This document shows, piece by piece, positions 8,340 through 64,000 of a stretch of DNA of 64,000 bases. The notes below the pieces were generated by a model that did not search any database, was not told the DNA's origin, and saw nothing but the letters and a program-made list of their open reading frames with translations. How positions within the stretch are numbered: position 1 is the first letter of the stretch; every line of letters begins with the position of its first letter. This stretch comes from Polytrichum commune (lineage: Eukaryota > Streptophyta > Polytrichopsida > Polytrichales > Polytrichaceae), in contig OX485803.1 in NCBI GenBank assembly GCA_950295325.1, forward strand, positions 70,013,554 through 70,077,553, given 5' to 3'. The position numbers and the translations under genes are program-made.

Positions 8340-10567
8340 ATGGGGGCGAGGGGGTTGATGGGCGTGTTGGGCTTAACTTTGGTGGTACTTGTCCTGGCGA
8401 CAAGCTCTTGGAGCACACCGGCTGAAGCTACGGGGGCTCTCATGTTCAAGAAAGCGACGAAGAAGAAGGCGTCGACCTCGACCTCGACGAAGTTGAAGGT
8501 GGGGTTTTACACTGGTTCGTGTGCAACGGTGGAGACTCAGATCAGGAATGCAGTGGTGGCACAGGCGAAACTGGATCCAACCATCATTCCAGCTCTCATC
8601 CGCCTCTTTTTTCATGATTGCTTCGCCAATGTAAGTCTCAAATATCTCTCCCAACTTATCCTGCTTTCTATATCTCCTCCTGCAAATCGATCTCAAATTT
8701 CTCAGTGCGTGTGGCTCAGAAGAGAAGAGGAGCAGTGATGATGAATGATGTTGTTTACTGACGTTGTTGGAGCATTTTGTATATATCTTTCCTTGAAGAG
8801 GTGATGTCATGTGTGACGAGTCAACGCTCGTGGGTTGCAGGGAAAGTGCGATGCTTCCGTATTGCTCAAGGGCACCAGCACTACGAAGACTGAGCTTGAC
8901 TCGACTACGAATCTGACGTTGCAAGGGTTGAATTTCATTGATTTTCTCAAATCCATGCTCACAAAAGCCAACTGCACCCAAGTGTCTTGCGCTGACATAA
9001 TCGCTCTGTCTGCCAGAGACGCGGTTGTTGCGGTGAGCGGGCTGACCTCACTACCCTGCTCATTATTATTTGTTCAGATATGCAACCGACTGACAGTGCC
9101 TGTCCTCATTGAGAATAAACATAGTTTCGTGGGAAAATGCTGACTTCTGAAGTTGGTGATCATCCCATGAGTCTCATTCTACTTTCAGCACAGGGACCGC
9201 GGATGCAATGTGTTTGCAACTGCGCTGTCTATCTTATCCACTGTAAAGGCATTGTCTTGTCAGCTGTTTTGAGAATAAGATATGGGTTGTGAGTTAGTTT
9301 TTGTATTCTGACGGGTGAAGGTTTCTATGCAATTGTTTGGCAGGGTGGTGGAACATCCTACAGCATACCAACTGGTCGAAAGGATGGCTTGGTTTCTCTT
9401 AAAGCGGACGCAGACAACATGCCCACTTCTCGTACTCCAATCTCTGGCATTCTTGCCCAATTCTCCAACAAAGGGTTTAGTGCTCAGGAAATGGTGGTCC
9501 TCACAGGTATTCCACTATGCCATCGAACTGCCTTCACACGCAGTTCACACTTTGGTTGTATGCACTCGAATATTTTCCTCGGTAGATGTCGAGCAAATGA
9601 ATTGTTTTGAAGACTTTCTAGATAATTACCGGTGAACCTTTTAAACCACGGTATCTTAGTTCTCTTGGAAGTTTGGTTTATCTTAGCTTGTGACAGTAGA
9701 GGGTATAATATGAACTAGATAATGTAGGTAATGGGTTGTAGTAGGCGTCCAACCCATTGAGCTGTGTGCTAGTGGCAAGGTAGGTGTTGGGTGCCTACTA
9801 CAACCGATGGCTAGAGGGCATGCGTTCATTACTTGACATACTTGACTCATCCAAACGGAGAGCACTTTCAACAACTTTCTTGTGCTATTCTATCAATGTA
9901 GAGAACATTTCTTCTAAAATATTTAGTCAATGTTCAGGAGTAGACTAGAGTAGATGGATATTTCATTGTTATAGCATATCGACATTCACACTCCTTTCCC
10001 GGTTATGTAGTTCGTAGTGGTCAAGCTATGGCAGGGTCATCCATTACGTTTGATAATGTGCCTTCTTGCATCCAATTAGGTATAGACATGTGAAAGAAAT
10101 TGCTTAGCATTAAGTCAAAGCTTCTGTCTCTGACGTTCATGCGATGTGCAGGAGGGGGACACACAGTTGGTAAAACACACTGTGGATTCTTTTTCGAGCG
10201 TCTTTGGAACTTCTTCAACACAGGCAAACCCGACCCACAAATGAACTCGACCCTTGTGACGGAGTTGCAGAAAGTGTGCCCAAACCAATCAGGACTGGGA
10301 AACTCCACATTCTTAGACCGAGGTACACCATTGGTTATGGATAATGTCTACTTTAAGCAACTTCTCATCAAAAAGGGAGTAATGCAATCAGACCAAGGCC
10401 TTTTACAAAATACAGAGACGAAGCCTCTAGTTACTTCTCTTGCACAAGGAGCAAATACTGCCTTCCTCCAGCAGTTTGCAACCGCCATGGTGAAGCTAGG
10501 GAACCTTGGTCCCATCACGAGCACCAAACTTGGAGAGATTCGGAAAGTTTGTTCGAAGATTAATTAG
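8340..10567 (+). CDS. Class III (secretory) peroxidase, 4 exons
   Basis: Exons are 8340-8630, 8841-9032, 9344-9506 and 10152-10567; all introns are GT-AG and the joined frame is 353 aa. The family oxidises phenolics with H2O2 in the cell wall or apoplast. Residues 1-32 look like a signal peptide. RLFFHDCF gives the distal Arg (about 88) and His (about 92), and GGGHTVGKTHC the proximal haem His (about 219). All eight disulfide cysteines can be placed (GSC, HDC, KCDAS, NCTQVSC, THC, KVC, and RKVC near the end). Three introns after HDCF-x-N, after ARDAVVA and before GGHTVG fit the ancestral layout of the family. Oddities: a Lys/Thr/Ser-rich linker (about residues 37-54) before the mature domain, and one extra residue in N-G-K-C-D-A-S compared with the usual N-G-C-D-A-S. 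An in-frame GTG lies upstream, but the ATG at 8340 directly precedes the hydrophobic signal sequence. It appears intact. Confidence 0.93.
9734..9805. repeat. Inverted repeat (hairpin) in peroxidase intron 3
   Basis: A perfect 13-bp arm GGTTGTAGTAGGC (9734-9746) pairs with GCCTACTACAACC (9793-9805). A 46-bp spacer lies between. It sits in the 645-bp third intron. It may be a remnant of a small foldback element; no function is evident. Confidence 0.7.
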
Positions 10568-16523: not shown

Positions 16524-16843
16524 TAGAGTTATCCTTTAACTCAAAGGAGTTTGGTAGGGAGTTTCTTACAAAACCTTCCATGTTTGGCAAGCTTGAGGTG
16601 CATGCGTCGGAGGTCGTGTGGAGGTTTGAACCAATAACATTCTACATGAGGGAATTGAGGGTCAAACTCATTTTAGCAACGCATGCGGTGCTAAAATGAG
16701 TTTGACCCTCAATTCCCTCATGTAGAATGTTATTGGTTCAAACCTCCACACGACCTCCGACGCATGCACCTCAAGCTTGCCAAACATGGAAGGTTTTGTA
16801 AGAAACTCCCTACCAAACTCCTTTGAGTTAAAGGATAACTCTA
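16524..16843. repeat. 320-bp near-perfect palindrome, no loop
   Basis: Positions 16524-16683 are the reverse complement of 16684-16843 with only one mismatch seen (16679/16688). The centre is GCATGC with no spacer. Outer ends are TAGAGTTATCC and its complement, so a TA target site is possible. It lies in the Copia integrase just beyond the CKAHVLIHKA block. It could be a foldback element, an inverted duplication, or an assembly artefact. Confidence 0.9.
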
Positions 16844-19211
16844 ATGCCTTGTGAATTAAGACATGAGCTTTGCATCCAAAAACTTTAAGATAAGATAAAT
16901 TTGGTTGTCTTCCATGACTTATTTCAAGAGGAATTTTGCTTGTTGTCATAGCCTTTATAGGATTTCTATTTCGAAGGTAATTTGCAGTTTGAAGTGCTTC
17001 ACCCCAAAATGTCTTTGGTAATTTAGAATAGGATAATATGGTTAGAACCGCTCCAATCAATGTCCTATTTTGCCTTTCTAGCACTCCATTTGTTATGGTG
17101 TGTAGGCTATAGTAAGTTCTCTTTTGATGCCTTCTTTTTGACAATAATCATTAAACTCGTTGGACACATATTCTCCACCTCAATTTGACCTTAGTATTTA
17201 AATTTTGTGATTTGTTTGTTTTTCTTCAAAGCTTTTGTATTGTGAAAATTTATCAAATACTTGCGATTTATGTGTCATTAAGTATACATGACAATATCTT
17301 GGAAGATCATCAATGAACATAATGAATTAAATACACCTTCTATGTGGCCCAACTTGCATGGGTCTACATATATCTAAATGTACTATTTTCAAAAATTCAA
17401 TGACTCTATGTGTTGCTTGATTTGGAAATTTTTCTCTATGTTGTTTGCCTTCAATGCAAGATTGACATAAAGTTGTTTCATTTTCATCAAAAAATTCAAT
17501 ACCTTTTGAATTTGAATTTGTTTCAATATCTTTTTGATTGATGTGGCCTCCTCTTGGGTGCCACAAATTTGCTTTGTTTAGATATGTGGTAGTTGGGATA
17601 GCAATTTCATGATGATTAGTTGTCATAATGACACCTAATTCATATGAGTCAGGATTTAACTTGCATATTGCAATTCCTTGTCCAAACTTGTTGATAAGTG
17701 TTAATTTCTCAACTTTGATGCGGATTTCTCCACCAGCTTTGTCTAATTGTTTGGCCGAAAACAAATTCTTTGCAAATCTCGGTATGTGTAAGACATCAAG
17801 TATGATGTTCTCATCATCATTTACGAATCTTATATTCACATCACCATATCCTTCTATGGTATATGATGTTGAGTTGTCTCCTAAGTAGATAACTTGTTGA
17901 TTTTTGTTTTATTGTATATTTTGTGAAGCCTTCAAGTTGATGACACATATGTTGTGTCAATCCTGAATGCACATACCATGTGGAGTTTGATGATCCTTAA
18001 GCTATTAAATCTACCACATATAGCTTGTTTGTTCTAGTATCAATGTTTGTTTGAGTATTGTTATTACCATTTTTTGCAGCAATTCTTGATCTACAATTTT
18101 CAATCACGTGTCCTTGTTTCTCGTAGTAGAAACATTTATTATCAACATCAACATTTTCCTTTCAAAAGGCTTGGAGTCACTACTCTCTCCCTTTGAATAT
18201 GAAATTTTCCTAAAGTTAATTTTAAAGTAAGGTTTCTTACCTTTAATAGATTTTTTTTACATAGAGTGTTGATGCGTTGTCTATAATAAAGTTCATATTC
18301 TTCATTAGGGTTTCGTCTTGAATCACATCTTTGATTAGTAATTGCAAGGTAGTTGTTGGTTGCATTCTTACAAAGCTAATGAAGGATCTATATATAACTT
18401 GGAGGAAGACTTCTCATCAAGGTGAGTATGGCTTCATTATCAAGAAATGCTATGCTATTAATAATTGCTCAACATGAGCTCTAAAATTATGAATGTGTTT
18501 TACAACACTTCCATTTTCTTTCATTTTTAAAGTGTGTAGTTTATCCTTTAAATATATTTTTGTTACAATGTCATGTGATTCAAATTATTTTAATAGTTTT
18601 TGCCATGCTTGACGAGTAGATGTGCATGATTGTATATGTGAAACAATATTTTTTTGAAGGAAATTATTGATAAATGTTAAAGGCAAAGCATCTTTGTCTT
18701 CCCATGCACCTATCCTAGGCATGTAAATATGGGAATCCAACAACAATTTGTGCTACCATTGGTGCCACCGATAAGAGTTCTACACCACTTACAAGGGGCC
18801 ATAATTTTCTACCTTGAAAATCTATATTAATCTATGTTTGTAGACATTGAAGTAAAAACCATCAAATTTAGATACATGGTTGGTGTCCACTTTTGTGCCA
18901 TTTTCAATATACTTGATTTAATATCACATGTATTTCAAGGTCTTCCAAGAAGATAGTTAAATTGTTCCGCCATGCTTCTATTCCTTCCATTTCACTAATG
19001 CTTTGTGTTGGGTTATTTATAAGAGTGTTGTTTGGTGCAAGATTGGAATCACATTCCACAGGTTTAATAACTTCGATTTCATCAAGAACCTCTTTGTTTA
19101 CAATAGGTTGTTCTTCCATGGCCATTACAAGCTATTTTATAATCAATACTATTCTTTTCTTGTTCAACACTTTACTCACTGACCTCAAGGATCAAGCGTT
19201 CTAAACATAAA

Positions 19212-19581: not shown

Positions 19582-20060
19582 CTACACCAAGTCTTGGTTG
19601 GATCGGACAAATAAAAGCTCGTTCACTATCGCTGGCTTCAGCCCGGAGCGCTTCTTGGTTAGCGTATTCCCTGCATCCGAGAAGTTTGACTCCGATTTGG
19701 AGTTGGATGCAGGGATGCACAAAACCAAACGCACCACTCGCGACATGATGGGGAATGTGGGGGCTCCTTTCAACTTCCACCACAAGAGAATACTAAATTT
19801 AGCAATGATATCCCGATTCATTGGCAATGCTAAGCTCACCACTGCAATGATCTCATTTTTTTCGAGATCAGTGACCTTGTATGTCTCATACATACTGAAC
19901 TCAAGCTCAATACGTGCGTCAAAGTTGCTAACAACGACGATCACAACCCCATTGTCATGAATCTCTTCTAACTCATCCTCAAACTCATTGCACATAAACG
20001 TCATGTCATCATTACAATGCTTCTTTTGTGGTGGGGCCGGTGCATCATCTTTCTCGTGAT
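19582..20060 (-). pseudogene. hAT transposase C-terminal dimerisation domain
   Basis: The minus-strand frame carries WWKLKGAPTFPIMSRVVRLV, then IPASNSKSESNFSDAGNTL and a conserved R-S-G-L-K-P...V-N-E-L-L-F-V-R-S-N end. This is the well-known hAT family dimerisation domain. The N-terminal zinc finger and the DDE catalytic region are absent, so it is a fragment. An acidic stretch (DELEEIHDNG) precedes it. Confidence 0.85.
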
Positions 20061-20096
20061 CCAAATTAGCTAAAACCTCCCCTGTGCCAATTGAGC

Positions 20097-20232
20097 ACAT
20101 GACATGTGCGCACCCATGCCCACCCATGCCCACCCATTATAATATCGAACCCATGCCCACCCATGAACAATAATATCGCACCCATGCCCATCCAAAACCC
20201 ATGGGCATGGGTGGGCATGGGTATGGGCACCC
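20097..20232. repeat. hAT subterminal CATGGGC/GCCCATG repeats
   Basis: CCCATGCCCACC and its complement recur many times, ending in an inverted pair near 20198-20225. A matching cluster lies at 19449-19550 at the other end of the element. Clusters of short motifs near both ends are the usual transposase-binding regions of hAT elements; that role here is inferred. Confidence 0.75.
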
Positions 20233-43913: not shown

Positions 43914-44321
43914 ACTACACTAAATAGGTAGATTAGTGTTGGAAACACTAATAGTCGACGAAAATGCTAAATGTCAATTGTCTTCATAGTGTTAGAATAC
44001 TAAATGTCAACTCTAACACTATTTGTACCAATTAGTAACTTTGAATATTTACAAAAGCGCATTTAGTGTTAGATGACATTTTTTGTAGATCTTCAAATGA
44101 AGAATTGGAGGTAGAATATGTGAGCCTCATAGAAAATGTAATATGCTAGGAATTTGATATTACAAAATTTAAACTTAATGGAACTCAACTTTGACAATGC
44201 AAAATAAAGACAAAGGAAATTGTAACACTAATTGTACTTTCAAGTGACATTTAGTGTTTTGGGTAACTATTGGCTCTAACACTAATCTTCATCTAACACT
44301 AATCTACCTATTTAGTGTAGT
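43914..44321. mobile_element. MITE with ACTACACT termini
   Basis: The left end, ACTACACTAAATAGGTAGAT followed by TAGTGTT, is matched perfectly by its complement at the right end over 408 bp. Inside, AACACTAA/TTAGTGTT motifs recur. There is no coding capacity. No convincing target duplication was found. Confidence 0.8.
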
Positions 44322-45334
44322 TGAATTTAGTGACCAAGCATGCTATTCGTCAATGAGCTTAGTGTGGGTTTATATGTACCGTAGTTTTCTAGCAATTTGA
44401 GCACCTTTTTGCCTAATAATAAATTAAAGTGTGAAAGTAAGTTAGCTAGTCTAAAAAATAATATTCAAAAGTTGGGCAAATTCAAAAAGTAATTTAAAAC
44501 AAAGTTAGACATTCAATCCCGTTTGCTTGTCTCATTCCAGTTTTTATGGTAGTGTGTGAGCATGACTTGTGGAGCAAATTCATGCTTGTATTGATTTAAG
44601 ACCACGAGTGAGATTGATGCCACATGAAGACACTGTTGTAGTTATTTAATTTGATGCTACTTTGTTGGATTCGAGTGAATATCACTTTGCATTATTGTGA
44701 TTTTAGGCACTCTTTGAATGTTATAATTATTTTTGTACACTCAACGAAATTAATTCCCCCAAAATCTATGCACCTTTAAAATTAATTATTTTTTGCCCAA
44801 GCCGCTAGAGAGCTACGGTATTAGGGTGCGGGTTCAAGAAACTCAAGGTCCCAAACACCCCTTGAATGGACCTTACAAGGATTCAAGATTGGACATTTGG
44901 TTGAAGAATGGTTTCTCAAACTAGAATGAGTATTTATGGAATTGTTGAAACCAACAAGATTTGGTGGAAAAGTGGTGTCACACCATTGCCACTAAAAATT
45001 GTAATTTATTTGTACTTTGCACTCAGACCCACAGTGTGAACTCTCTGGGTCCAAACTTTCTTGGCCTCATACCCTAGTGTAAACCCACCATGGCTCCCTC
45101 AATTGAGCATTCTTTTTGGCTCGGTTTCATGGTGCAAGGCATTCATGGTTTATTCTATTAGTTTTCTTGATCATACACCTTTATTTCAAAGGTGAATAAC
45201 TAGTGTGGACCTAATAACAAAAAACCATAAAGACACATATTCGTAAATAATATGGGCAACACCTTCAATTTTTATATTAACTACTCTACATTCAATTGTC
45301 AACACTATTTATTGATTTTTTTATGGGAGGGAAT
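44322..45334. other. AT-rich gene-free stretch
   Basis: No coding region, RNA gene or element was recognised between the MITE and the solo LTR. Confidence 0.4.
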
Positions 45335-45339
45335 CTATG

Positions 45340-46148
45340 TGTTACGAACCTCTCACCAATTGGCAATTTGTTTCTTGACAACAAAATCTCAAAGTAAAGA
45401 ATTGAAACAAACACCAATTTTATTTCTTCTTCTAAGTACAAACCACAACCAAATAAAGTTTGGTCAACGAAGCTCTACCACCCGACCATAGGAGAGAGAC
45501 AAAAAAGATCCTCTCTCCTCCCCCGAGCTTCCTCTTATGCCGAAGCACTACTTTTACTTTCTATATTTACATATAGTAAAAGTATTCTATTCATAGCTCT
45601 ATCTCATAGTTCTGCTATAAATCTTCTATCTTTGGTTCTTCTAGAACCTTCTTTCATCTCTTATCTCAATTCCATTCTTCCAATTGGAACTGTCTAATTC
45701 CAATTGGATTCATCCATTCTTCTTTCTAGTTGGAACTGTCTAATTCCAACTAAATACATCCATCCTTCATTCCAGTTGGAACTGTCTAATTCCAACTTGG
45801 TTCATCCAACCTTTCTCTTAGTTGGAACTGTCTAATTCCAACTAGCTTTATCTATTCATTGAGAGTTGTCTAACTCCAATGAATAACTTCCAAATATGGA
45901 GTGGTCTAACTCCTGTGCACCTCATCGAGAGTTGTCTAACTCACATGCACATGTTCTCAATTGGAATGCTCTAGTTCCAATGCACTAAATGCGGAGCTGT
46001 CTAACTCCAGTGCACATGTTGTCAATCTGGAGTTGTCTTACTCCTTTCCATTCATCCTCAACTGAGAGTTGTCTAGCTCTCATCTTTCTCTGCTTACACA
46101 CTGGCACATGTAGTTAGAATATTCCTTAATAATTCTAGTTACATTACA
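45340..46148 (+). mobile_element. Solo LTR with hairpin array, copy B
   Basis: It starts TGTTACGAACCTCTCACC and ends TTACATTACA, 809 bp, with a perfect 5-bp duplication CTATG (45335-45339, 46149-46153). It is the inverted relative of 28028-28743 and is 93 bp longer, close to two 46-bp array units. A stretch rich in CTCTCTCC precedes the array. There is no internal retrotransposon sequence, so it is a solo LTR. Confidence 0.9.
45680..46085 (+). repeat. Array of 11 short hairpins with conserved GTCT loop
   Basis: Eleven units have the form GGAACT-GTCT-AATTCC or GAGTT-GTCT-AACTC. The loop tetramer starts at about 45692, 45738, 45784, 45830, 45868, 45904, 45934, 45969 (CTCT), 45999, 46035 and 46071. 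Spacing is 46 bp for the first four, then 30-38. Outer stems differ between units but stay complementary, for example CCAATT/AATTGG, TAGTT/AACTA and TTCATTG/CAATGAA. The function is unknown. Confidence 0.85.
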
Positions 46149-46571
46149 CTATGTATTTATTTTCAACACTCAACACACATGAATTTCAATAAAGCATAAT
46201 TAAGTTAATAAGAGGAGGTCCGATTTCAATGATCTTTTGATGTTGTTTCTTTGTCACGTAGAATAAGGTAGATGGTTGTTATATAGCTACTTTTTCTAAC
46301 TAGACCACTTTTCCTAGGTTATGAAAGATGTAATTAGGTGGATGGCAAGTCCAAAGCCACCTCCTCATGATTTTGGAGCTTACATGAGTATCTAATTCAT
46401 TATTATAGCAAAGATTCTCGTGCTCATTAAATGGTCATATAGGACCCCTCCCCCCCAAACTATGTCAATTTTTTTATTTTTTTATTTAATTTCCATTCTT
46501 GAAGACACACTTGACCACATACCACTCATATGTAGGTGTCCAATTAAGATGAGTGCGTGGATTAGGCATGT

Positions 46572-46769
46572 CTACACTATTTATCCAATTAGTGCATGTT
46601 ACTATTTGGAGTTATGCAATGCTATAACTATTTCATGAGAATGTAATATTCTTCAATGTTTGAACACCCTGTTGACCTTTCATTAGTAAAAATTGAATTC
46701 TTGAGCAAGATGTTATTGCATTGTGTAACTCCGAATAACAACACACGCTAATTGAGATAAGCAGTGTAG
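46572..46769. mobile_element. Small MITE, CTACACT termini
   Basis: This 198-bp element has long imperfect inverted repeats beginning CTACACT and passing through GGAGTTA-x2-CAATGC. Related copies lie near 59260-59470 and 60165-60400. It carries no protein. Confidence 0.65.
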
Positions 46770-49700
46770 TCTTTTCACACAAATCCACAACCCAAATTTG
46801 ATCGACACAAAGATGTAGGAAAAAAGAAGAAGAAAGGAACCAACTGAAACAACATCTGCATACCTCACATGCTTGCAGTGACTGTGCCGATGCGGACGTG
46901 GGAGTAAATAAGTTGAGTGGTCCGGGGAGGATTTTTGGTCATAATCGGTCAAAACCCTAGTGTAAGAAAGTCCAACCTGTTACATGTTGTGATCTTTTGG
47001 GGTTTTTCCTTTCTTTATTCGAGGCATATTCCATAGATTCATCTAAACTGATAGGTAATATTTCCTACAGTCTTGAACCTCAACCGGTTGTTTCTCAACA
47101 GGTTCATCTGTAACTAGCTGTTCGTTCTTCCCGTACACTGAATAAGTTAAGCATAAGATGGCCTTGACACGGTCTACTTTCTGCAACTGTTTGGATGCAT
47201 CGTGTGAGGAATGACCCAGAAGTCGCAGGAGAACCGGGAAACTGATTAAGTTAAGCGATTGATTTGAGCACGGGCAGACGACTGAGGTCCATGGAGTTGA
47301 CAGAATACTTTGGGCAATTTGTGTCAAGTGGGCCAAATGTGATCAAACAACCCGAGCACAGTAAGTTGATGACAAAATTGGAATGAACATCATGCAACCA
47401 ACCATGTTGGAAGTTCATAGTTGTTGCAGTGACTCCTCGTGGGCTTTGTCGAATGCTCATATAAGCATAATTTATCATAGTAGTTGCTTTTGCTGCAACG
47501 TCGAATGCTCGTATAAGCGTAATTTATCATGGTTGCTTTTACTGCAATGTCATAGCAAGCCATGAGTGGAGATGTCCGTGCTGCTCCTCGACCAAGAAGC
47601 CCAACGGTCATCATGGGTAAATCGATCTGTTGAAACCACATCAAGTGTGCTTTAAACGTTTTATTTTCAATGCTTTGAGATTTAGTGTGAGGTGTTTTTT
47701 GGAGCTAATTCGCATTATTATACCAATGACGTGGTTCGTCTTTCAGAGTGGATTAGGGATGCTTGGTAATAAAAGCCATCGTAGGGGAGACAAATTTTTG
47801 CAATGTTTCACATGTGCATGTGCAAGGGGAGGATCTGGACCCAAGTCTGTTCCATCCTAAAGTCCATTTTTGTCCATGCTAGCACCTATTATTGAGGGAG
47901 ATGATGGAGACCATTTTAGTTTGTCTTTTAACAAGAAGGTCGCAATATATTTTGATGTTCTCTATGATGTTCGTCAAGAATACCAAATGTAAGTCTCCTA
48001 TTATTCAACACTATTGGTGATAACCTCCAGGGAACAAGTGGGTACACGATATAATTGACATTGATAGGGTTGGATTTCAATAATTAGAAGATTGTTGGGT
48101 GTCATAATATTGTGATGAAAGGACCCCAATATTTAGGGAAAGCTACATCTACTCTTCCATTTAATAAGTTTAGTTTCATTTCCTATTCCCATGAGCATGT
48201 TCCATGGAGCTTCATCACCGAGAGAAGCTACATCATGAGCATGGGCATGCCCCTATTACCAACATTTTGGGGCTTGCCTGCATTTTTTTTGGGACTATTT
48301 TAAAGGCCACACGTGCCCCTATAATTGTGTTGCAGATGCAATTGCCCGAAAGATCGATTTGGCTACTCAAATGAACATTTTGGTTGCCCAAATGATGTTT
48401 TGTGGAGTTTAGGTACGTTGTTAGGGTTCACATGGATTATGGTTTGAAGTTGGCCTTGATTTTATTGCACACACAACATACCCACATTGATGTCCAACAA
48501 CAAACAACATTGATGAATGTATACAATATGCATATTCTTGAAGCTTGAGGGCATGGCACATAATGTTTATTGTACATAGTGTAGTGAAAAACAACCAACA
48601 ACCTCATTAGAGGAATTGAATGCCTAAGAGAACAAAAGTGGCCTACAGGGAACATCTCCAACCCTAAGGTCCAAAACGTTGTTCCCTCATTGAACTCCAA
48701 ACCCTAAGCTGCAACCATGGATGAAGACCCCACAATGCTATGTTGTAGCAACAACAACCTCAAGAAAATTTCAAACATGCACGCCCTCATCTTCAGCTGC
48801 ATTCCACCGATTGAGGCAGAATGATTGAAGTATTCCAAGTCTTGCATTTATTGGTCGTGGTCTGGGTTCAGGTCCAAACTCTCCCCCAAACCTGCAAACC
48901 AAAAATAGTACCAAACGCTGTATAGTGTTGGTTGGCTCACATTGCTTGAAATTGGGCAAGCTACTTTGGGTGATTCCTAATCACTTGGCTCTAGTTAGTG
49001 TTCACAAGATGGAGCTCTAACAACTGAGCAATAACCTCATCAAATGTAGCCTCCATGATCACCTTCAAAATGTGCTCCAAGAAGAGGTCATCTGGAATGG
49101 GATGCAAAACATAGCCCATGTTGTTACTACTTAGGTGGGAGTTGCGAGTTTCAAAAAACAATAGTCATGCCAATCAGTCGCTATTTGCATATAGATGACT
49201 ACATGTAGTCATAAATGTATGACTATATGAGTCATATGGTCTCAAGTCCCACTGCAGGTCCTGTTTTGAGGTCCCAAAACACTGTGGGAACGCAACATTG
49301 GGAACAAGAAGTGTCCGATATGACCCCCAGTCAGATTGTCCGAAGCGACTAAGTCGAAATGACTACAAACAGTGCTAGTCACATTTTGGTTTATGCCCTA
49401 TTGTAGTCATAAAACCTAGTCACATTGGGCTGGTTTTCTTGTAGTGCAAGGTGATGTTTCAAAGCAAAGAATGGATACATACATCTTGGAAAATTGTCCA
49501 CTATCGCATTCCACTCAATGCCAAAATTTGTGCTATTTTGGTTTGTCAAAAGTTACAAACTCCCTATGCAAAAAAAATTCATGCTCTTTATGGTAGTCAC
49601 CATGAATTGTCCAACAACTATTTCACAAAAATGGTAAGTAGTAGGTTGCACTTGACGAACTGCCTTATTATCACACATTGCATGATGTGTGTTGTGTAGT

Positions 49701-50870: not shown

Positions 50871-50920
<50 letters not shown>
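50871..50920. repeat. (TC)25 microsatellite
   Basis: Fifty bases of uninterrupted TC dinucleotides. It is embedded in a strongly pyrimidine-rich plus strand (about 50050-51600). Confidence 0.97.
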
Positions 50921-50927
<7 letters not shown>

Positions 50928-63180: not shown

Positions 63181-64000
63181 ATGACGAGCGAAAGCTCGTT
63201 GCTATGGAGTTTATTAGTTCTTGTGGCCGGCCTCTACGTGACTGTGCTGGTGGAGGCTGTTAGTACAGATGACGCAACGATCCTCCAGAAATTTAAAAAT
63301 AGTGTGCAGCAAGGTCCGAATGGGGTGCTTGGGTCATGGGGATCATCGGCGGACCCGTGCACTTGGACCGGGGTGAACTGCACATCTTCCAGAGTAACTT
63401 CCCTCACTTTGCAGAATGGGCAGTTGCAAGGCACCGTGAGCGACATCGCTGGGTTAGCAAGCTTGCCTATGCTGAAGTTGCTCACCCTGTCTGGGAACAA
63501 TTTCTCGCAGGGGTCGATCTCAAGTTTGACATGGAGCACTACATCCGGATCAGTGTGTCAATTGGAGTACGTGGATCTCTCCTACAACATCCTCCAAGGC
63601 AACTTCACAGAAAATGGGTTCGGTGTCTGCAAGGGGCTGCAAACCCTAAACCTCACAGACAATGAGCTTGTGGGTAGCATACCTGCGGGGATGTACACAC
63701 AGCTGCCGTCCATCAAAGTGATCGACCTTTCTCACAATTCTCTCACTGGGACCCTCCCAACCGAGATCAATTGCAGCAGCTTGCAGGTGCTGAGCCTCTC
63801 TTTCAACGACTTCAACGGCGCTATCCCTTCTGGGCTTGGCCAGTGCCCGCAACTCACTCAGATCGATCTTACAGGAAACAACTTCACCGGTGGCCTCCCT
63901 GCAGACCTTTTCACAGGTGCCTAATTAAGTTACCTTGCTTCTTCTCAGTCATCGATCAATTGATTTACTTACGATGCCATTTTAATTCTGCCCCATTTCA
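63181..64000 (+). CDS. LRR receptor-like kinase, N-terminal part (BRI1/BRL-like)
   Basis: The ATG at 63181 opens 247 codons; the gene is cut by the window edge or ends at 63924. Residues 1-26 form a hydrophobic signal peptide. Then comes an LRR N-terminal cap with W-G-S-S-A-D-P-C-T-W-T-G-V-N-C, and about seven leucine-rich repeats of the plant type (LxxLxLxxNxLxGxIP): LTLSGNNFSQG, VDLSYNILQG, LNLTDNELVG, IDLSHNSLTG, LSLSFNDFNG, IDLTGNNFTG and a first weaker one. Such proteins are cell-surface receptors; the cap and early repeats recall the brassinosteroid receptor group, but the diagnostic island and kinase domains lie outside the window. After FTG the frame meets TAA (63922-63924). Either a weak donor (ACAG/GTGCCT) leads to another exon, or the protein is truncated. 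Confidence 0.8.

Follow-up and report, generated by a model that had tools for sequence, protein, structure and literature searches.

A conserved-loop hairpin module is widespread in the genome of Polytrichum commune, where it occupies the presumed U3 of a Ty3/gypsy chromovirus family and represents a putative cis-element. The array is tentatively read as a multivalent foldback element that more likely acts as RNA than as DNA, with an enhancer-like array of DNA palindromes as the main rival. The window analysed is a stretch of 64,000 nt (contig OX485803.1, positions 70,013,554 to 70,077,553, forward strand), and coordinates refer to this window.

The array is contained in a solo LTR of 809 bp with TG...CA ends on the minus strand (Table 1), which was classified as solo because CTATG duplications directly flank a single LTR. 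A full copy elsewhere in the genome (locus L001) carries two LTRs that are identical to each other (804/804 bases) and are each about 95% identical to the window LTR. Its one ORF comprises gag, protease, RT, RNase H, integrase and chromodomain. A Pfam scan of one full copy returned Retrotrans_gag/Ty3_capsid, RVP_2, RVT_1, RT_RNaseH, Integrase_H2C2, rve (below its cut-off) and Chromo, which is the Ty3 domain order with the C-terminal chromodomain of a Ty3/gypsy chromovirus. LTR identity was read from the TG/CA ends and CTATG duplications of the window copy and from the primer-binding site TGGTATCAGAGC, which adjoins the 5' LTR of full copies and which we take to be that of tRNA-Met. The primer-binding site was located downstream of the array in 6/6 array-bearing loci in which one was found, and likewise in junction piece L129. 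From the coding ORF, primer-binding site and LTRs of the L001 copy it follows that the sense strand has TAGACA and not TGTCTA.

Within the window LTR, the array spans positions ~67-469, ahead of a TATA-like stretch and AATAAA. Because it lies upstream of the TATA-like stretch, it was placed in the presumed U3; so placed, it would be promoter-side DNA and also 3' UTR of the genomic RNA. The TATA-like stretch is spanned by an inverted repeat (45549-45584; 17-nt arms, 82% complementary, 2 nt between), the sequence of which is present in the L001 full copy too. This repeat could give one more hairpin, at the promoter or in the R region.

Table 1. Positions of the window LTR, its duplications, its presumed signals and the eleven hairpins (numbered in sense order).
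Feature	Position	Strand	Basis
Solo LTR of Ty3/gypsy chromovirus	45340..46148	-	borders read from sequence; ~95% identity over ~807 bp to both LTRs of one full copy
Target-site duplication CTATG, left	45335..45339	.	sequence
Target-site duplication CTATG, right	46149..46153	.	sequence
TATA-like stretch downstream of array, presumed promoter	45561..45575	-	sequence
AATAAA, presumed polyadenylation signal	45419..45424	-	sequence; role inferred
Hairpin 1, loop CTAGACAA, stem GAGAG/CTCTC	46063..46082	-	sequence
Hairpin 2, loop TAAGACAA, stem GGAG/CTCC	46027..46046	-	sequence
Hairpin 3, loop TTAGACAG	45991..46010	-	sequence
Hairpin 4, loop CTAGAGCA, sole non-AGAC centre in window array	45961..45980	-	sequence
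Hairpin 5, loop TTAGACAA, T.T at fourth pair	45926..45945	-	sequence
Hairpin 6, loop TTAGACCA	45896..45915	-	sequence
Hairpin 7, loop TTAGACAA, G.T and bulge, then outer ATTCATTG/CAATGAAT	45854..45884	-	sequence; type in 112 loci
Hairpin 8, loop TTAGACAG, long stem	45819..45844	-	sequence
Hairpin 9, loop TTAGACAG, long stem	45774..45797	-	sequence
Hairpin 10, loop TTAGACAG, long stem	45727..45752	-	sequence
Hairpin 11, loop TTAGACAG, stem CCAATTGGAA/TTCCAATTGG	45680..45707	-	sequence

Other features of the window were recorded separately. A 52-bp tandem repeat in two copies is located outside the LTR (47448-47551), and a perfect (TC)25.5 microsatellite at 50871-50921. Ty1/copia-like remnants with GAG-pre-integrase and retroviral SH3-like domains (16668-17839, minus strand) and an ORF with a hAT transposase dimerisation domain (19582-20133, minus strand) were identified. 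Plant-type genes are represented by a peroxidase fragment (10100-10567, plus strand) and a leucine-rich-repeat N terminus (LRRNT_2; 63181-63924, plus strand). The genome has seven large contigs (42-78 Mb), which would be in keeping with seven chromosomes.

A preliminary description of this DNA had noted eleven hairpins spaced 30-46 bp apart inside an LTR, with a near-invariant GTCT centre. Both points were confirmed at 45680-46082, with the correction that the LTR is on the minus strand. Start-to-start distances are 36, 36, 30, 35, 30, 36, 38, 46, 46 and 46 bp. GTCT (AGAC on the minus, i.e. sense, strand) forms the centre of 10/11 hairpins, and the fourth in sense order has AGAG. The hexamer TAGACA is present in 8/11 (hairpins 2, 4 and 6 deviate), and the sense loop is mostly TTAGACAA/G. 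Outside the 8-nt loop, the first four stem pairs are all Watson-Crick in 9/11 hairpins; in the remaining two, the fourth pair is T.T or G.T. The complementarity ascribed to the stems is firm for about 4-6 pairs and does not cover whole arms in every unit. In units of the hairpin 7 type, the G.T pair was present in 92/152; after it, a bulge of one base separates the inner from the outer stem and recurs across copies.

When 45640-46100 was folded, the plus strand reached -121.2 kcal/mol (z -7.86) and the minus strand -138.4 kcal/mol (z -6.68); either value was reached by 0/100 shuffles. The pattern TAGACA-N18-48-TAGACA-N18-48-TAGACA was matched 3 times in the window vs 0.01 expected. An Rfam search of window positions 44000-48000, up to E 1, returned three hits, all outside the LTR and all below gathering score.

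Genome-wide, the spaced-loop pattern gave 927 matches vs 161 for the pattern read backwards as control; several matches are possible per array, and simple repeats and satellites are among the first ~100 places listed. For the exact core GGAGTTAGACAACTCC, 309 occurrences were counted vs 0 when it was read backwards. With the 406-bp array as query, 629 candidate places were obtained, of which 40 were scored and 40/40 matched. For sampling, 141 loci were cut. Six of these (L127-L132, which are LTR-internal junction pieces or second LTRs of sampled elements) were left out, and the remaining 135 loci plus the window formed the 136-locus set used for haplotype, unit-type and outer-arm counts. Some loop and early co-variation counts were made with the first 106 loci plus the window (107 loci). 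The possibility that the array is private to this locus, raised in the preliminary description, is excluded by its occurrence in the 135 other loci read, in addition to the genome-wide pattern matches.

L001-L046 and the window contain 3-13 units each, a few of which are chance hits outside arrays; old copies only ~75% alike are included. Unit number differs between copies. About a dozen unit types can be told apart, each of them passed down to many loci. The commonest unit spacings are 46, 36, 38, 33 and 34 without a common helical phase.

The loop is the best-conserved class of the array. For this comparison, a set of 51 copies was used (the window and 50 loci aligning over the first six hairpins, including second LTRs L128 and L131). 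Over the six orthologous hairpins, mean majority-base frequency was highest in the loop hexamer (0.958), followed by the two outer loop positions (0.910), the flank (0.908), the spacer (0.899) and the stem (0.884). A subfamily alignment of L001 vs L029 had given spacer 71%, stem 93% and loop hexamer 97%, as if stems and loops were far better conserved than spacers. That contrast was rejected because 46-bp units can align out of register; on the six orthologous units, spacers were as conserved as stems. Of the loop, stem and spacer contrasts, the loop effect alone survives the orthologous-unit alignment.

The loop was also recovered by a search for stems only (six perfect pairs, free 8-nt loop), which returned 428 hairpins in the 107 loci. 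The commonest loops were TTAGACAG (95), TTAGACAA (75) and TTAGATAG (27). The first two account for 170/428 hairpins; many others are one-base variants, and some are chance AT-rich loops.

On the chosen strand of the 136 loci, 843 usable TAGACA were counted vs 19 TGTCTA. In the 107 loci, 18 TGTCTA were present vs ~29 expected by chance. As the strand was set by TAGACA majority, these counts show constant orientation within loci, and orientation to the element was checked only where coding or primer-site evidence was at hand. In 7,001 bases of the L001 full copy, 16/16 TAGACA on the sense strand are in the two LTRs. Two TGTCTA, the loop complement, are present on the same strand, both in the internal region.

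Since AGACA fits RRACH, the loop could alternatively be an m6A acceptor and the array a 3' UTR methylation cluster controlling granule storage or export. RRm6ACH is described as the Arabidopsis motif (PMC4714525), m6A is described as controlling a plant LTR retrotransposon (PMC12786077), and the motif in the arrays is on one strand within loci, which is the sense strand where this can be told. RRACH is, however, short and common, the commonest Arabidopsis forms are given as AAACU and AAACA (PMC4714525), and the motif by itself needs no stems. We regard an m6A cluster as very improbable.

For co-variation analysis, units were picked by exact TAGACA irrespective of their stems, and loci were oriented so that TAGACA outnumbered its complement. 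Among 118 dissimilar units, pairs 3-8 had a Watson-Crick excess of 18, 12, 6, 7, 14 and 7 points on the exact diagonal. Pairs 3, 4 and 7 beat 2000, 2000 and 1999 of 2000 shuffles, and pairs 5, 6 and 8 were weakly beyond shuffles (76, 90 and 64 of 2000 as high). No excess over shuffles was detected in these units for pair 2 and pairs 9-12.

A second set of 94 dissimilar units excluded the window and L001 and kept some chance TAGACA outside arrays. Here 62.4% were paired vs 55.3 (sd 1.4), the co-variation score was 0.330 vs 0.239 (sd 0.018), and doubly changed cells numbered 74 vs 54.4. Each of these values was reached by 0/500 shuffles and was highest at slide 0; percentage paired dropped to 51.4 at slide +1 and 42.2 at slide -1, and the score to 0.277 and 0.164, respectively. 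Two other measures in the 94 units were not above shuffles: pairs changed on both sides (6 vs 6.0; 491/500 shuffles reach) and further pair types (22 vs 21.6; 260/500 reach). It had been proposed earlier that structure is kept in the foldback. This is partly supported, by stems that pair and co-vary above shuffles and slides and by the loop as most conserved class, and is weakened by two of the five co-variation measures.

Compensating changes in both arms had been claimed as well. They exist at orthologous units and are few; many of the stem differences first listed lie between paralogous units. At the sixth pair of hairpin 1, orthologous copies have G-C 29, A-T 21 and A.C 2 of 52 (units with a changed loop being admitted only if 4/6 pairs formed), and the aligned-copy set has G-C 22, A-T 20, A.A 4 and A.C 3 of 49. 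At the third pair of hairpin 4, A-T 43, G-C 6 and G.T 1 of 50 were found. With the core otherwise fixed and A at +2, the third pair is genome-wide G-C 309, A-T 286, A.C 28 and G.T 20, which are copies and not independent events. Fixed mismatches persist in several unit types, e.g. T.T in hairpin 5 (42/50 copies).

These data were weighed against descent alone, by which the array would consist of ordinary diverged tandem repeats of one palindromic unit and the apparent co-variation would reflect shared ancestry of the unit types. Inheritance of about a dozen types by many loci each is in keeping with this. The outer pairs 9-12 hardly co-vary and were discounted as evidence, and some off-diagonal cells of the 118-unit test are also large (16, 15 and 11 points, above several diagonal ones). 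In addition, shuffles leave relatedness in, and the two measures not above them are those least sensitive to it. Shared ancestry alone would, however, not make the exact register best, would not give compensated states at the same orthologous unit and would not keep the loop. We regard it as improbable.

For analysis of how pairing is kept, single-locus haplotypes were compared with the nearest shared haplotype; 243/276 were used (within 3 differences), so larger conversions would escape. Among the private changes, 308 single changes break a Watson-Crick pair. Watson-Crick pairs altered on both sides numbered 24 vs 21.7 expected by chance, and 12 of these 24 became another Watson-Crick pair vs 7.2 expected. 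Decay by private changes, most of them presumably in dead copies, is thus near neutral. The preliminary description had named neutral-rate loss of complementarity in other copies as speaking against kept structure; such loss was seen for private single-copy changes, as expected of dead copies. Strong arm repair or homogenisation in genomic copies is unsupported by the private changes of the 243 haplotypes. Given near-neutral private decay, complementarity must come from the replicating lineage, either by selection or by copying at the reverse-transcription stage.

Fold-back template switching during reverse transcription or replication could make the arms complementary even if selection on the fold were weak or absent. 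For RNA hairpins, a mechanism of this kind has been described (PMC8794818); as here, both arms change together, and the origin there is mutational. The about equal A.C and G.T intermediates of the present stems would fit it. A copying process should, however, mend dead genomic copies too, and among the private changes those on both sides of a pair were not clearly in excess of chance. It leaves the conserved loop unexplained, and inverted loops are at or below chance level. Template switching confined to reverse transcription may be compatible with the private-change data. As what keeps the arms complementary, a copying process seems decidedly improbable, slightly more so than descent alone.

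The preliminary description had left the foldback at RNA or DNA. If sense RNA is under selection, G.U should outlast A.C, and no significant difference was found. Sorted by haplotype sharing, G.T vs A.C was 37:25 for haplotypes in at least 2 loci (p 0.16), 12:10 for at least 3, 9:5 for at least 4 and 8:3 for at least 5, without significant wobble asymmetry. The ratio was 71:63 in the 94 dissimilar units (no significant excess) and 20:28 genome-wide at the third pair (no G.T excess). The clearest wobble bias was observed at pair 9 of 46-bp units (G.T over A.C 27:7 in 176 distinct outer-arm haplotypes of the 136 loci); it was set aside because these haplotypes are probably related. Fold z-scores of 26 hand-picked arrays were alike for both strands (medians -5.05 for sense and -4.93 for antisense; Wilcoxon p 0.25). 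Neither a wobble signature of RNA nor folding specific to one strand is supported by these counts and z-scores.

The lack of significant strand asymmetry in mismatches or folding is what duplex DNA predicts. The array could accordingly consist of U3 enhancer repeats, palindromes to which protein binds at the DNA level, with a transcription factor on GGARTTAGACAAYTCC-like sites upstream of the TATA-like region. Tnt1 belongs to Ty1/copia, and the present host family to Ty3/gypsy. For Tnt1 and other elements, U3 tandem repeats that act in transcription are described (PMC3601003); like these, the present array consists of short tandem repeats in the presumed U3, upstream of a TATA-like stretch with a presumed promoter role, and its number of units varies between copies. 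In contrast to the repeats described there, the present units are hairpins with a conserved non-palindromic loop and with stems that change in step. The centre TAGACA, as the most conserved part, argues against palindromic sites. Flanking half-sites vary together (third pair G-C 309, A-T 286, mixed 48), which separate half-sites would not need, and the commonest spacings of 46, 36, 38, 33 and 34 share no helical phase. An enhancer array has to be taken seriously but is somewhat unlikely.

An RNA platform was ranked first because the conserved non-palindromic loop, the constant orientation and the co-varying stems suit a loop-reading protein and are hard to obtain via duplex binding. Counted against it are stems no better conserved than spacers at orthologous units, and U3 as a seat of enhancers also. 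We tentatively prefer a cis-acting element that would act on single-stranded sense nucleic acid, in the first place genomic RNA, as a multi-loop protein platform. The array would provide up to about a dozen U3 foldback hairpins, most with the loop YTAGACAR on a short stem. As the U3 of the 3' LTR would be 3' UTR of the genomic RNA, the array would fold there. A protein that recognises the loop, either Gag of the element itself or an RNA-binding protein of the host, would occupy many loops at once, and through the resulting avidity the array would serve in packaging, in localisation, in export or in stability. As the stems differ, each hairpin would pair within itself, and the repeats would be less prone to slip or to recombine with one another. 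U3 placement and transcription of the array, an RNA fold in cells, protein binding and the identity of the protein are all steps that we infer.

In synthetic phage-hairpin arrays, stems are varied to stop recombination. The proposed natural array would be similar in design. That this lineage evolved a multivalent 3' UTR RNA docking platform, in which up to about a dozen similar loops on unlike stems would be recognised by a Gag or host protein dedicated to them, is conceivable, and we regard it with somewhat more doubt than the cis-acting element.

Several known RNA elements are comparable in part. The MLV gamma-CTE and the MPMV CTE are described as NXF1-recruiting stem-loops with AAGACA, four and eight tandem copies of which raised Gag output (PMC4174252). 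They share with the present hairpins a retroelement stem-loop exposing AGACA. Their loop has AAGACA, whereas the commonest loops here have TAGACA and do not match that motif, and the gamma-CTE is described as one larger element in pol (PMC4174252). Plants are said to use TREX rather than NXF1 (PMC12786077). The IAP RTE and musD MTE RNA transport elements are likewise structured cis-RNA elements of LTR retrotransposons; they are mouse elements with other folds, and the account in PMC12786077, as far as it covers them, mentions no tandem array. The Ty1 kissing-loop dimerisation elements (PMC5454406) are also retrotransposon RNA motifs with a functional loop. They are described at the 5' end of the RNA, and the present loop, unlike theirs, is not self-complementary. 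No hairpin array of this form was found described in the open-access titles and abstract starts searched.

LTR retrotransposons fill many plant genomes, and their recognition and packaging signals are little known; direct studies of retrotransposon RNA export in plants are stated not to have been done (PMC12786077). As the loop is repeated, has a clear letter code and is preserved in many copies, it could serve directly as bait for a protein partner. The variety of stems is a ready experiment on whether pairing, letters or both are required. Finally, as dead copies provide a neutral control, the array can be used to tell selection on hairpins apart from their upkeep by template switching.
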